Positions 1 through 35,192 of a DNA stretch of 64,000 nucleotides are shown here, piece by piece. The notes under the pieces are model-generated. The model was not told where the DNA came from. It did no database searches and saw only the letters and a program-made list of their open reading frames with translations. Each line of letters starts with the position of its first letter. The stretch's first letter is position 1. The stretch is from Obelidium mucronatum (Eukaryota; Chytridiomycota; Chytridiomycetes; Chytridiales; Chytriomycetaceae), in contig JAIVFH010000009.1 in the NCBI GenBank assembly GCA_025765595.1, positions 248,001 through 312,000 of the forward strand, in the 5' to 3' direction. The translations under genes were made by a program, and so were the position numbers.

Positions 1-363
1 ACTCACCGCCGAAGGCGGTGTCGGTACCGCCGAAGGCGGTAGATTTCTTTTTTTTTCTTTGACCGCCGAAGGCGGTGGAATTCCTTTCTTTTTTTTCTTT
101 TGCCGCCGAAGGCGGTGTATTCTTTTGACATTGCAACATGTATTCACTGTCCCTCTCCATCTCCATCTCACCTCCAATTCTTTACTCACCGCCGAAGGCG
201 GTGTCGGTACCGCCGAAGGCGGTAGATTTCTTTTTTTTTCTTTGACCGCCGAAGGCGGTGGAATTCCTTTCTTTTTTTTCTTTTGCCGCCGAAGGCGGTG
301 TATTCTTTTGACATTGCAACATGTATTCACTCTCCCTCTTCATCTCCATCTCACCTCCAATTC
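1..363 (+). repeat. Tandem 183-bp duplication carrying GC hairpins, inside an ARPC1 intron
   Basis: Two near-identical copies with a 183-bp period (the second starts at 184; the first may begin before the window). Each copy holds four 15-mers of the form ACCGCC-GAA-GGCGGT or a close variant, for example at 5-19, 26-40, 62-76 and about 102-116, separated by pyrimidine tracts. Each 15-mer is a perfect 6-bp stem with a GAA loop. The copies differ by only a few bases in the tract near 145-165 versus 328-348, so the duplication is recent. The array lies upstream of an in-frame exon and is read here as intron sequence. Related hairpins occur at 24404-24510. Confidence 0.9.
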
Positions 364-376
364 TTTTCCATAAAAG

Positions 377-678
377 GGAACTTGTGGACCGCATCGACAA
401 GGGTTCCAGCAAGTCCATTTCAAATGAAAACAGTGCCATGGACATGTTCAAAAAGATGGCCAGTCGCGCTCAAGCTACTACAGACGTTGAGCTCAACAGT
501 CAACACCAGAACACTATTACGTAATGGATGGATTTGATGCTGTCTTTTATTTTTTTAACGAATTGTTTTTTATTTTATTTCACACAGGTCCATTCGTCCT
601 TACTTGACTCAAGGCGACCGTGTTTTGCAGTTTTCTACTTCTGGTGTGGATGGAAAGCTTATCATCTGGAGATTGTAA
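377..678 (+). CDS. ARPC1: Arp2/3 complex subunit 1 (ARPC1/p41-Arc), C-terminal exons, partial
   Basis: This is the last part of the WD40-propeller subunit of the Arp2/3 complex, which nucleates branched actin. Two exons are visible: about 377-520 and 588-678, split by a 67-bp GTAATG...CACAG intron with phase 2. Exon one encodes a linker rich in Ser and Lys containing NSAMDMFKKM, a typical ARPC1 insert. Exon two ends FSTSGVDGKLIIWRL followed by TAA, the classical last WD blade. The upstream exon junction near AAAAG at 372-376 is inferred. The rest of the gene lies before or within the hairpin-rich 5' intron and is outside the window. Confidence 0.85.
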
Positions 679-29606: not shown

Positions 29607-32600
29607 ATGATTGAACGCGTCACTCCCAACCAGGTAGAAGAGGGTAACCTTCTACTCGAGAAGAAAGTTCTCGATCCCTCGCAAAACCTGTGTACGGCTA
29701 TCTTTGCGCTGGTGCTGAGGCTGGGATTCTCATATGGTTTAGTTCGTCTGTCTCTGATTTTATCGCTACCTCTGGCCCCGGGTTCATCGCTCTTATGGAC
29801 AGCCAATGGACTTCAGATTGCGGCCATTATATCTTGCTATCCTCGGATTCGTCTTTTTGTTCCTTTGGGGTTCTTTGTTGCTGTACTGCTGGGCTTGTTG
29901 TCAATCTACACACCAAAAACATCGGCACTTCTGTCTCTCATACATTGCCTCGAATCCATTATTATTTCTGGCTCTATATTAGCTGTGTCAAAAGGGTCAT
30001 CGCCATTGAAGAAAATCGAATCTCTTGCAGTGCTGTTGGGATCAACGTTGCTTGTTGTTACGATTGCGGCAGTATGCCGATCTCTAATACTGATTTATGA
30101 CTTGGAAACAACGTTGAATTTATCCAATGCGATTCTGCTGGATTGGGGTGCCACGTTTGCTGGAGATTTAATCGTTGCACCACTTTTCATGTTTCCACCT
30201 TCCACGACCGCGCTTGATCTGGGGAATTTAAGTACATTGGTGCCAATTATAACTGGCAGCCTATGTATTGGGGTTGCGTTTGGTTTACAGTACCTCCTTC
30301 CAAACAATGCCAGCATGCTTATTTTATTCATTCAATTTCCGCTTTTGTATATGAGTGCCTATGTCGGTGGATACGTTGGGCTATCAATGACTAGCCTCGC
30401 GGCTATTCTGGGGAATATTGGATTCAGCTTCATTTCCAGCTTCAGCACTATCCCGCTGAGTATATCCTTGTCGTCAGGACCAATATTGGTGCTCTTTTTT
30501 CATAGTGCTATTCAAATTGGCTGCTTATGTCTTGTGGAAGGAACCCACCACCGTCGGCAATTCTCAGCGACACCCGTCGCTTCTAAAGAAACGGCGCACA
30601 CAGTCGGAATATCTCGTAACCCAACCCTTAAAACAGAAGAAATGATGTCCGATGAAATTTATCTTGTTAACAAGTCGAGATATTTGAGTTTAATGTTCTC
30701 CCAAATTCATTCGCCTCTAATTGCTATTATTGAAGCGTGCCAAAATGCCAAACAAAAACTGGAGATTGATTCAAGCAAGCTCATTAGTCCAATAGTAAAT
30801 CAAACGGCATTAGTTCTCTCGAGTGTGGACGATTACCTGAGTTATGAACGGTTGGAGTCAGGGTCAGTCAAACCGAAACTTGTAAGCGCAAATCTCAAGG
30901 ATGTGATTGACCTACCGATTGCTTGCGCCCAAAAAGTTTTTGATAAACACAATGTACTCTTTGAAATCCGCTCAAATTTGGTTTCTGAGTGGGTCTTTGT
31001 TGATCCCATTTTCCTCCAACAAGCCATCTTAAATTTATTGCTGGGCACGCTTGATGTAAGAAATAATACTTTTCTAATCCAGTAGCGCTAACTTGGTTTT
31101 GTTTTATTTCATAGTTACTGTCAGATACGCCAGAAAAGGTTGTGCTAGACATCAAGTATAATTTTTCCAGTCCGAAAAATCCGGGCGAGCTATCCGAAGT
31201 ATCCACATTAGAGATTCTGCTTTCAATTCCTACAGCCAAAATTGATTTCGACACGGAGAGCATATTTATCGCATTCCTTCAGAAATTGGACAAACCTGCA
31301 GCCAGCCAAATATGTTCACTAACGTTACCAGTTGCGAAAACCCTCATCAACATGCTTGGTGGAGAGTTGAGAAGCTATTTGACAAGCTCGAAAGGGTGGA
31401 AGATAGCGTTTGAGCTTACATTCCAAACATCATCAATATCGAAGAATAGCGTGGCTGAAGCTTCAGCAGCCGATCAAATAGGCCCGTATCTTAAAACTTT
31501 GGGTATGATGGCAAAAACAAAGCGGAAAGAGAAAGAATGTCATGCATCGCTTTCAATGACAAGTGTTGCATCAGATATTGAGAATCCTCCAACTCTTTTT
31601 GGATTCCTCGCTTCAAGCTTGACTGGATATATGAAAACAGAAGTCTTCAAGAAGTCTTCAACGAGATCATTAATGACAAAGCAAATGTATCTAGGAGATG
31701 AAGCCAAGTCGCACCCGTCTAGAAAGTCCAACGCATCTGCGTTGTCGAGCGGGCTCTCCAGCTTGAGGAGAAGCATCAGTTCTTCAAAGAACTTTAGAAA
31801 AAAGCAGGTGCACTATCTGGATTCAACTAACAATATGGGTTCAAGTGATTCGAAAGATTTCGAAGTGATTGACAAGAAACTGATTCTACAAGGTGACGCC
31901 TTAATGTCTTCCTCTGATGGAGATGTAGAGCAGCTATCACTTAGATCATCAGGGATATCGCTACGTGTCCCCAGTATGAAGGGCAGTAGCATCATAGCTG
32001 GGTCAAACAAATCTTCGCGGCAAGGAACAATGAGAAGAAAAACCAGCCTCCACCAAGAAACAAATTATGCGAGAGCCGATTATGGATCTGCTGATAACGC
32101 GATTGGAGAGAAACCCGAAAATAGACCGATGCTGTTTGAGGAATATCGAGTGTCACAAAATGCTGGACTTCTCCACATTTCTCTTCCGGCATCTCGAAGA
32201 AACAGCTCTATTCAATCGCATAGAGCTAGTTTATCTTCAATGAGAAGAGACAGCGTGACCAAGGAAGGAAAATCAAATACAATAAGCCAGCAAGATAATG
32301 ACGCAAAAGCCTTGGAAAGTTCTTATCCTGTCGCTATTCCTGAAGTAGAAAGCAGGAATATGTCCATTAAAAGTGAATCCGTAGATGATATTGATCTGGA
32401 CAGTGAAATTCTAGAGGCAGCGACGGAGTCCGTTATGCGTGTATATCAGCATAATAGCTGCATTAGTGATCACTTGCAAGGAAACATACTTTTGGTTGAT
32501 GATTCATCAGTTTTTCGGCAGATTTTGAACAAATTCCTCACCACAATCAGCTCAGAATTTTCAATATCGGAAGCTGCAAACGGAGAAGAAGCATTCGTCA

Positions 32601-33770
32601 AATGCCAATCCACACTATTTAATTTGATATTTCTAGATATGGACATGCCAAAACTAAATGGGGGCGTGAGTGGATTTTTCCCCTTTTCGCTTCAGTGTTA
32701 AATATTGCTTTTTCTATAGCAACTCGCCACGAAATTATCAAGCCACAACTATTCTTCCCCCATAGTCATAATAACATCGAATACCATCCCTAAAGACGAA
32801 GTTACCCGATTATCCACCATGTCTGTTACGGAAGTCATAAGCAAGCCGTTGTCAAAAGACAAAGTTCTACAGCTCCTGATAAAATACAATAAGCCAATAG
32901 CTTTGAAAGGGATAGAGCTGTTTTCACCTACTGTCAACATACCCGAAGTCCAAGTCACAGATTCGGCGGCTTCCATTAGAACCACTCGTTCTGCAACACT
33001 ACCAATTCAAATAAGTAGATCCCCTTCAGAAGCTAGGTCGACAGCCGAAGGGACATTGGATGGCAGGTTCAACAGTTTGAAATCGGAAAGCAGTAGTAGC
33101 CGCTCACAAAATGAAGGCCCCATACCGATAGAGACGAAACTCCATCGCTTCCAAACAGGCAGTCAAGAAAGTGAAGTGGGTCGACTATCAGTGCCTAGTA
33201 TGCATACTGATATCAAAGCTACTATACCCCCATCGAGTTCTTCGGCCGCGTTAGTTGTTGACGATTCAATCATTAATCGTTCCATTCTCGTGAAAATGCT
33301 TGAAAAGTTAGAGTTATTTGACGAGATAGTTCAAGTGGCCAATGGACATGATGCCATACGATTTTGTACGATGAAGCCGTTCAAAATTATCTTTATGGAC
33401 CTGGAAATGCCTGGAATGCACGGGTAACTAACTACTTTGGGTGCTTTTGCATGCTTTAATCAACTAAAATTTTGTTATTTCCCTCTCCTGCTGTACTAGT
33501 GAGGAGGCTGCGGCCAGAATTCGGGCCACTGGATCAAAGACACCAATAATTGCGGTGACAGGAAACATTGTGCGAGGGAAAGATGAAAATAACTTGAAAG
33601 TGGTTGGAATCAGCCAAATACTGTTGAAGCCAGTAGACCGCGCCACTGTCAAGGAGATATGTAGCAAATACGGGCTTCAAGGAGGGCATCGCGATTTGAC
33701 GCCAGTCAGCCCAACGAATCTTTCCGCACCAAAGCCAGGATTTGGGTCCCTTCGAAGAAACTTGCAATAA
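29607..33770 (+). CDS. Hybrid sensor: MASE1-like membrane domain, degenerate histidine-kinase core, two receiver domains
   Basis: Exons 29607-31055, 31115-32665, 32720-33423 and 33500-33770 (1,324 aa). Residues 30-310 hold about eight hydrophobic segments with a MASE1-like start (SLLWTANGLQIAAIISC). A HisKA-like helix keeps a histidine (FSQIHSPLIAIIEA) but not the usual H-E/D pair. The ATPase region keeps LQQAILNLLL, but the second N-box Asn, the DxGxG box and the GxGLG box are absent. After a Ser-rich 250-residue linker, receiver 1 has ILLVDDS, FLDMDMP and ISKPLS; receiver 2 has LVVDDS, FMDLEMP, AVTGN and LLKPVD. It was probably membrane-bound and phosphorelay-linked; the kinase is likely inactive. 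Confidence 0.85.
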
Positions 33771-34714: not shown

Positions 34715-35192
34715 TTACAACTTGTAGAACTTGTTAAGCCATTCCCTCGCCTCATTATACTGGGTCCTCGCATCTTTAACCAATTCACCCAGCTTCTCCA
34801 TCAGAACATCATCAGATAAAGCCAAAGGTTCCCCACTTGAGTCTACCTTCCGGCCATAGTTTTGGATTTGCTCACACGTTTCGCGAATCTTTTGTAGTCC
34901 CAGTGCTGCAGAGCTCCCCTTCATGAAATGACCCAGCCTTCCCAATGACTCGAGATCCATCTTTCCTCTAAATAAATGAAAAAAGAATTGGGCGATCGTA
35001 GCCAAATGTTAGATTGCCAATCGTGTATGTAGCCACCACTTACAGACTATCGTCAAGCTCCAGCAGCGTCGTTTCCGCCTGTGTCATATAGTCTTTGGCT
35101 ATTCCTTTGCTGAAATCGCGGTTCTCGTCGTCGTCCATCTCCAAGAGTTGGTCAAAGACGCTGCTATCGACGATGTCCCCATAGTCGGTCAT
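34715..35192 (-). CDS. YPD1: Histidine-containing phosphotransfer protein (Ypd1-type HPt)
   Basis: Relays phosphate between receiver domains of hybrid kinases and response regulators. Exons on the minus strand: 35044-35192 and 34968-ended intron, resuming 34715-34967 (133 aa). The start MTDYGDIVDSSVFDQL and LLEMDDDENRDFSKGI match yeast Ypd1's N-terminal helices. The phosphorylatable His lies in LGHFMKGSSAALGLQKI, followed by EQIQNYGRKVD. It is convergent with CMS1 with a 43-bp gap and lies 0.9 kb from a hybrid sensor with two receivers, a suggestive local phosphorelay group. Confidence 0.93.

Follow-up and report, generated by a model that had tools for sequence, protein, structure and literature searches.

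Degenerate Histidine Kinase Core and Two Complete Receivers in a Putative Membrane Receptor of the Chytrid Obelidium mucronatum

The Gene and Its Product

The gene considered here is located on a 64,000-nucleotide stretch of the Obelidium mucronatum genome (Chytridiomycota, Chytridiales; contig JAIVFH010000009.1), referred to below as the window. It encodes a protein in which a multi-helix membrane region is followed by a degenerate histidine kinase core, a long linker, and two receivers (Table 1). Its four plus-strand exons (29607–31055, 31115–32665, 32720–33423, and 33500–33770) are separated by three introns with GT-AG borders (59, 54, and 76 bases), and the gene boundaries given in an initial annotation of the window stand on the basis of the open spliced frame. 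A public Obelidium record (P0002) is identical to residues 563–1324 of the protein; since it starts at residue 563, the sensor and the greater part of the core are missing from it. Support for the 5′ part of the gene model comes from an orthologue in Rhizoclosmatium globosum (P0001, 1273 amino acids), which matches residues 1–590 with 48% identity across 99% of that region.

Table 1. Features of the window gene and of the neighboring Ypd1 gene
Feature	Position in window	Strand	Remarks
Whole gene, 4 exons, 1324 amino acids	29607..33770	+	GT-AG introns, open spliced frame
Multi-helix membrane region, distantly MASE1-like, residues 28–312	29688..30542	+	Predicted helices; hhalign of family against C447
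Pseudo-DHp helical hairpin, residues 356–425	30672..30881	+	Structure matches on a low-confidence model; family profile; 66% identity to P0001
Ser365, at the phospho-acceptor His position	30699..30701	+	Alignments to C447 and HK853; structure offsets
His368, at the Arg position of HELRTP	30708..30710	+	Family alignment, HK853 alignment
Pseudo-CA (HATPase), residues 426–590	30882..31435	+	Intron 31056–31114 inside; N476 kept, G480 at second N-box Asn, no DxGxG, no GxGLG
Ser/Arg-rich linker, residues 591–935	31436..32470	+	49% identity to P0001; holds SLRRS...KKQVHY
KKQVHY motif, residues 712–717	31799–31816	+	Linker motif scan
REC1, residues 936–1055	32471..32884	+	Intron 32666–32719 inside; DD, D, T, K intact
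REC2, residues 1171–1292	33230..33671	+	Intron 33424–33499 inside; DD, D, T, K intact; 67% identity to P0001
Ypd1-type Hpt gene, 2 exons, 133 amino acids, HFMKGSS	34715..35192	-	Pfam Hpt E 1.5e-10

Loss of the Acceptor Histidine and of the ATP Site

The initial annotation described a pseudo-kinase that had lost its ATP-binding boxes but kept the HisKA histidine. The pseudo-kinase reading holds, and is stronger than was claimed since, judging by sequence, the acceptor His is gone as well: its column is occupied by Ser365, and His368, which had been taken for it, lies three residues further on at the Arg of HELRTP. An intact paralogue on contig C447 of the same genome reads CHELRNP opposite FSQIHSP of the window protein. 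A core profile was also built from six members, namely the window protein, P0001, the paralogues on contigs C100, C34, and C16, and P0100 from Rhizoclosmatium sp. JEL0117. In a HMMER alignment of this profile with HK853, the His of SHELRTP faces the residue that precedes Q in S-Q-I-H-S-P. The acceptor column holds S in the window protein, V in P0001, K in C100, E in P0100, D in C34, and E in C16, and H in C447. Three more divergent paralogues are also without His at this position (D, M, and N), in a less certain register. The His368 column is His in the window protein, P0001, and C100, and Arg in P0100, C34, and C16.

Structural comparisons were made with an AlphaFold2 model of poor quality (mean predicted local distance difference test score, pLDDT, of 58.5). 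H260 of HK853, the residue named in the title of entry 6rh7, falls on residue 365 in eight of 13 listed entries, on 364 in one, on 363 in four, and on 368 in none, in broad agreement with the sequence alignments; these offsets were read from where each alignment starts and assume that no gap precedes residue 365. The DHp structure of PhoR pairs its residues 237..310 with 343..416 of the model (74/74 residues, 2.0 Å root-mean-square deviation), and the pseudo-DHp also matches the structure of DivL.

With respect to the ATP site, both the DxGxG (G1) and GxGLG (G2) boxes are absent from the window protein, and the second N-box Asn is replaced by Gly480, as the initial annotation had it. Across the six core members, the window protein and P0001 share G in the latter column, C100 has T, P0100 has A, and both C34 and C16 have F. 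Five members keep the first N-box Asn (N476 in the window protein), which P0100 has lost. All six are missing the G1 Asp, with P0100 retaining both of the G1 glycines. The G2 box is gone from the window protein and P0001, and reads SGLGMA in C100, SGLGLA in P0100, SGLEMA in C34, and TGLETA in C16; among the six, the window protein and P0001 are the most eroded at the ATP site. Because the acceptor His, the second N-box Asn, and the G1 Asp are missing from every member, no self-phosphorylation is expected. By these features the window protein would not be classed as a functional hybrid histidine kinase, being without both an acceptor His and an ATP site.

Pfam detects nothing in the window protein besides the two receivers, even at E ≤ 10; neither HisKA nor HATPase_c is matched. 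HATPase_c is recognized above the cut-off in C100 (E 1.2e-7) and below it in C16 (5.6e-5) and C34 (1.2e-3), with no match in P0001 or in C30a, a paralogue on contig C30. Profile searches reach further. At E ≤ 0.1, the six-member profile recovers 53 distinct PDB sequences. Histidine kinases and phytochromes predominate, HK853 is the best match (E 6.6e-20, 233 positions), and the ethylene receptors ETR1 and ERS1, as well as RetS, are also included. A row for a ribosomal protein at 0.034 was set aside as noise. When an eight-member family alignment was compared with the C447 core in hhalign, an E-value of 3.6e-13 and a score of 91 were obtained, as against scores of ≤20 for 50 shuffles and 11 for the reversed sequence, while the window core alone was not significant (Prob 3.4). 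Profile comparison thus clearly points to the core being a kinase relic by descent, with homology in both its DHp and CA parts.

Two Complete Receivers

Two Response_reg stretches are recognized by Pfam in the window protein (whole-protein E 1.6e-40). The claim that each keeps the DD pair, the phospho-Asp, the Ser/Thr, and the Lys is borne out, as all five residues are found in REC1 (D945, D946, D991, T1019, and K1042) and in REC2 (D1181, D1182, D1227, T1255, and K1278). The same five, with one S for T, are kept in the window protein, P0001, C100, P0100, and C34 members. In a tree of 13 receivers, from which the receiver of the contig C20 paralogue and the REC2 of C16 (not modeled to its end) were left out, six REC1 rows are split from the rest with moderate support (81/84) and five REC2 rows group together (96/95). 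Since REC1 and REC2 rows group separately, the twin receivers are probably old, predating both the Obelidium/Rhizoclosmatium split and the paralogues in the tree.

When the window protein is compared with P0001, conservation is highest in REC2 (67% identity) and the pseudo-DHp (66%), followed by REC1 (58%), the membrane region (51%), the pseudo-CA (49%), and the linkers (34–49%, with linker3 at 34%). C100 and P0100, which form a second orthologous pair, are 59% identical in REC2, 46% in the membrane region, 43% in both REC1 and the CA, and 42% in the DHp. The high DHp conservation is therefore particular to the window protein and P0001.

A Possibly MASE1-Like Membrane Region

The N-terminal region is rich in predicted hydrophobic helices, of which there are more than three. 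The initial annotation had called it a MASE1-like sensor, a designation that is weakly supported, at the level of the family and not at that of the single sequence. Compared in hhalign with the MASE1 region of C447, the eight-member family alignment scored 51.6 (Prob 90.6, E 1.3e-6), whereas 50 shuffled controls reached at most 18.9 and the reversed sequence 20.8. Single sequences gave a Prob of at most 4.1 (window protein alone, 1.3). No match to Pfam MASE1 (PF05231, cut-off 29.8 bits) was found in the window protein, even at E ≤ 10, or in C100, C34, C16, P0001, and C30a. The region can be termed, weakly, MASE1-like rather than MASE1.

A Family with Graded Loss

A six-frame search of the genome with residues 1–590 recovered two exons of the window gene itself among a total of 18 matches at E ≤ 1. 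The others are located on C100 and C464 (near-identical to one another), C34, C30, C3, C537, C260, C20, and C117, the last being a weak match (E 0.016) in a gene whose HELRTP motif is intact; the C16 paralogue came to light by way of matches to the receiver and HATPase domains. The C100 and C34 models share the membrane region, degenerate core, and two receivers of the window protein, as does C16, the REC2 of which was read in part. C30, C3, and C537 each carry two adjoining paralogues, with a third piece on C30. One degenerate receiver is present in the part of the C20 gene that was read, the two modeled C30 copies stop after the linker, and a whole-genome receiver search found none on C3, C537, or C260. 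At loci L018–L021, MASE1-like pseudo-kinase genes occur in pairs on C537, C30, and C3 and singly on C260, with no nearby receiver match, so that they would comprise a sensor and a relic core. The C20 receiver (L023) reads LADSS where VDDSS is expected, so that one of the acidic pair is gone.

At the other end of the range, the C447 protein has Pfam matches to MASE1, HisKA, and HATPase_c, a complete set of catalytic residues (His, both N-box Asn, G1, and G2), and one receiver. A near-identical copy on C109 has its membrane region split over two frames. Both this pair (L014/L026) and the C100/C464 pair (L015/L016) sit on contigs that differ in size and may represent uncollapsed haplotypes, recent duplication, or assembly error, so that paralogue counts are upper bounds. 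C100 and C464 differ by 53 synonymous and 12 non-synonymous codons, and the ratio of non-synonymous to synonymous differences per site (pN/pS) is 0.069 over 1092 codons, with gapped codons omitted. The argument for selection that this ratio offers is weakened by indels in C464: relative to C100, a gap of one base interrupts one of its coding exons, and a further coding exon contains an insertion.

Among proteins, a search with residues 1–590 at E ≤ 0.001 returned two rows, P0001 and P0002. An alignment search (A1) gave 97 rows at E ≤ 1e-10. Apart from P0001, with 99% query coverage, these cover 26% or less or are without a local alignment, and the 96 rows in question were read as receiver or kinase relatives and not used. 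A search with residues 40–630 of C100 gave 33 rows, of which P0099 (Obelidium) and P0100 cover 98–100%; the remaining 31, with at most 56% coverage, were read as kinase-core relatives and likewise not used. These searches scored about 8000 candidates sharing the most words, and more fungal relatives are possible.

A Recurrent Linker Motif

The pattern KK/KR-x-V-[HR]-[YIL] occurs in seven of nine linkers, often following SLRRS or SILK, with two copies each in C34 and C20. It also occurs in the linkers of receiver-less paralogues and is absent from C100 and P0100. Its frequency in shuffled linkers is 0.0005–0.0045 each, values that are flattering as the pattern was derived from the same linkers. 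The C447 protein carries KSVRF after its CA domain, which fits a looser pattern (shuffle frequency 0.03). We take the motif to resemble the PP1-docking SILK and RVxF motifs. The consensus for such docking has F or W at +2.

A Possible Phosphoryl Sink on Ypd1

A gene for a Ypd1-type Hpt protein sits about 1 kb downstream of the window gene on the opposite strand. In the whole 48.3-Mb genome a single Hpt match was found, namely that of Ypd1 (window 34820–35005), although the search reads exon by exon and a divergent second Hpt could escape it. The sequence itself shows that the core is dead, that the active sites of the receivers are complete, that an orthologue and paralogues exist, and that Ypd1 is a neighbor; from this we infer uptake of phosphate from Ypd1~P, gating by a ligand, dimerization, and a direction of output.

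Our tentative reading, to which we give slightly less than an even chance, is that the window protein is a receptor of hybrid-kinase descent with a dead transmitter, the receivers of which drain Ypd1~P under the control of a ligand. The ancestor was probably a hybrid histidine kinase of the MASE1 type. The dead DHp/CA core would serve as a module for dimerization and the passage of conformational signals, and both receivers should themselves still accept phosphate; a ligand bound at the membrane domain would act through it to alter the availability of the receivers, which would take phosphoryl groups from Ypd1~P. The protein would in this way lower, or release, phosphoryl flux to response regulators. 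Candidate donors in the genome are Ypd1~P and the His of an active kinase within a heteromer; HisKA exceeds the Pfam cut-off at seven sites other than the window gene, and these too are candidates. Two points favor Ypd1~P: Ypd1 is a neighbor and apparently the sole Hpt, and receivers of several fungal hybrid kinase groups have been shown to pass phosphate to one Hpt (PMC11224324). A sink needs the reverse direction.

The initial annotation had suggested a sink, phosphatase, or scaffold fed through Ypd1. A sink or scaffold is still favored, given the one Hpt about 1 kb away. The phosphatase version is weakened, since the activity of RetS requires the Thr of HExxT (PMC5992135) and the corresponding positions of the window protein read S-Q-I-H-S. 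Extended to a chytrid receptor family in which phosphate flows backward from a single Ypd1 into twin membrane receivers and a ligand tunes the drain, the proposal is on the unlikely side. If true, it would provide a phosphorelay input without kinase or phosphatase catalysis by the receptor.

Several observations weigh against draining of Ypd1~P. The adjacency to Ypd1 may be due to chance; a small gene intervenes, and the arrangement is known from the Obelidium genome alone. Some paralogues are receiver-less, so that whatever function this part of the family may have would not depend on receivers. C464 may be a broken gene or a misassembly. G2 is largely preserved in C100 and P0100, as are two G1 glycines in P0100, so non-catalytic ATP binding is possible there. 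In RetS, moreover, the His is kept and phosphate comes from the His of a partner kinase, not from an Hpt.

A rather unlikely alternative is that the dead core heteromerizes with an active kinase of the C447 type and blocks or alters its activity, with REC2 taking phosphate directly from the partner His. Such an intact MASE1 hybrid kinase is encoded in the same genome, the pseudo-DHp is well conserved between the window protein and P0001, and the family profile matches RetS entries 6dk7 and 6dk8 (E 1.5e-11 and 1.7e-11) and chain 7n0e_B of the RetS-GacS co-complex entry (E 6.2e-12); mechanisms 1 and 3 of RetS (PMC5992135) provide a precedent. Common dimer contacts are doubtful, however, as the sensor and core are just 15–21% identical to C447, and the DHp of the other orthologous pair is far from being so well conserved (42%). 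More improbable is a receptor-scaffold with a non-two-component output through the linker motif, for instance by docking of a Ser/Thr phosphatase, in which the receivers would be secondary. The spread of the motif to receiver-less paralogues, the KSVRF of C447, and a linker 49% identical to that of P0001 would fit this. It is countered by the absence of the motif from C100 and P0100, by a pattern drawn from the very sequences on which it was scored, and by Y, I, or L at +2 where F or W is expected of PP1-type docking.

That the gene is simply decaying, without function, is very improbable. The graded loss within the family, down to C20 and the copies with no receiver, and the exon indels of C464 would be in keeping with decay, but the 1324 codons of the window gene are open, and its orthologue in another genus keeps both receivers. 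Least credible is an active kinase of unusual chemistry with His368 or Ser365 as the acceptor, a reading that the retained His of the initial annotation might suggest. DivL, which has Tyr at the phospho-acceptor position, is among the structure matches of the core; on the other hand, the window protein lacks G1, G2, and the second N-box Asn, and the His368 column is Arg in half of the six core members.

Comparison with Known Systems

The initial annotation knew of no such architecture having been characterized, which is too strong in general and may hold for fungi within the reach of the searches made. Kinase-degenerate membrane receptors are known in plants, some early-diverging fungi, and bacteria, and the window protein is a chytrid variant of these. 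RetS has a core unable to autophosphorylate, as is expected of the window protein, and likewise two receivers, and its core matches the family profile (E 1.5e-11); unlike it, RetS keeps both the His and HExxT. The sensor types of the two proteins also differ. PMC5992135 describes RetS of Pseudomonas aeruginosa as having two receivers along with a degenerate ATPase domain and a ligand-binding domain in the periplasm, with REC2 taking up phosphoryl groups; the case shows that a partner kinase can be drained by a receiver whose own sensor is dead.

A second parallel is found in the plant ethylene receptors ETR2, EIN4, and ERS2 and in truncated homologues from some early-diverging fungi, which are described in PMC5285503 as being without HATPase_c. 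The same source gives them a three-helix ethylene-binding domain, in contrast to the longer MASE1-like region and two receivers of the window protein, and includes R. globosum among the genomes surveyed. Within Obelidium, the family profile matches the transmembrane part (E 1.3e-6) and core (E 3.6e-13) of C447, which differs in its complete catalytic residues and one receiver. Ethylene receptors of the kind just mentioned have at most one receiver. Fungal group XII (dual) hybrid kinases do have two receivers per protein, whereas the window protein has one dead core and both receivers are C-terminal. In the literature searched, no MASE1-like, twin-receiver, His-less family was found in fungi, though existing surveys could already list P0001, and nothing was found on MASE1 in fungi, chytrids, or eukaryotes, or on the histidine kinases of Obelidium.

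Discussions of hybrid kinases in fungi usually treat them as donors of phosphate that converge on a single Hpt, Ypd1. A receptor family with a transmitter dead twice over, joined to complete twin receivers, would make the draining of a phosphorelay by eukaryotic receptors directly testable. The graded loss in one genome, from the intact C447 through the half-degenerate C100 and proteins with a dead core and two receivers to receiver-less copies, provides a natural series in which to ask what purpose each retained part of a sensor kinase serves. Scans based on HisKA and HATPase_c would miss such receptors: the window protein matches neither, and P0002 starts only after the sensor and the greater part of the core.

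Neighboring Genes and Other Receiver Matches

Downstream of the window gene are, in order, a small Lys-rich gene with no Pfam match, the Ypd1 gene, and a ribosomal S12/S23 gene. Upstream lies a Josephin-type gene in two pieces. Elsewhere in the genome, a receiver match on C440 (L029) is without the acidic pair (LVIEQHAVY), and similar matches are listed on C433 and C486.

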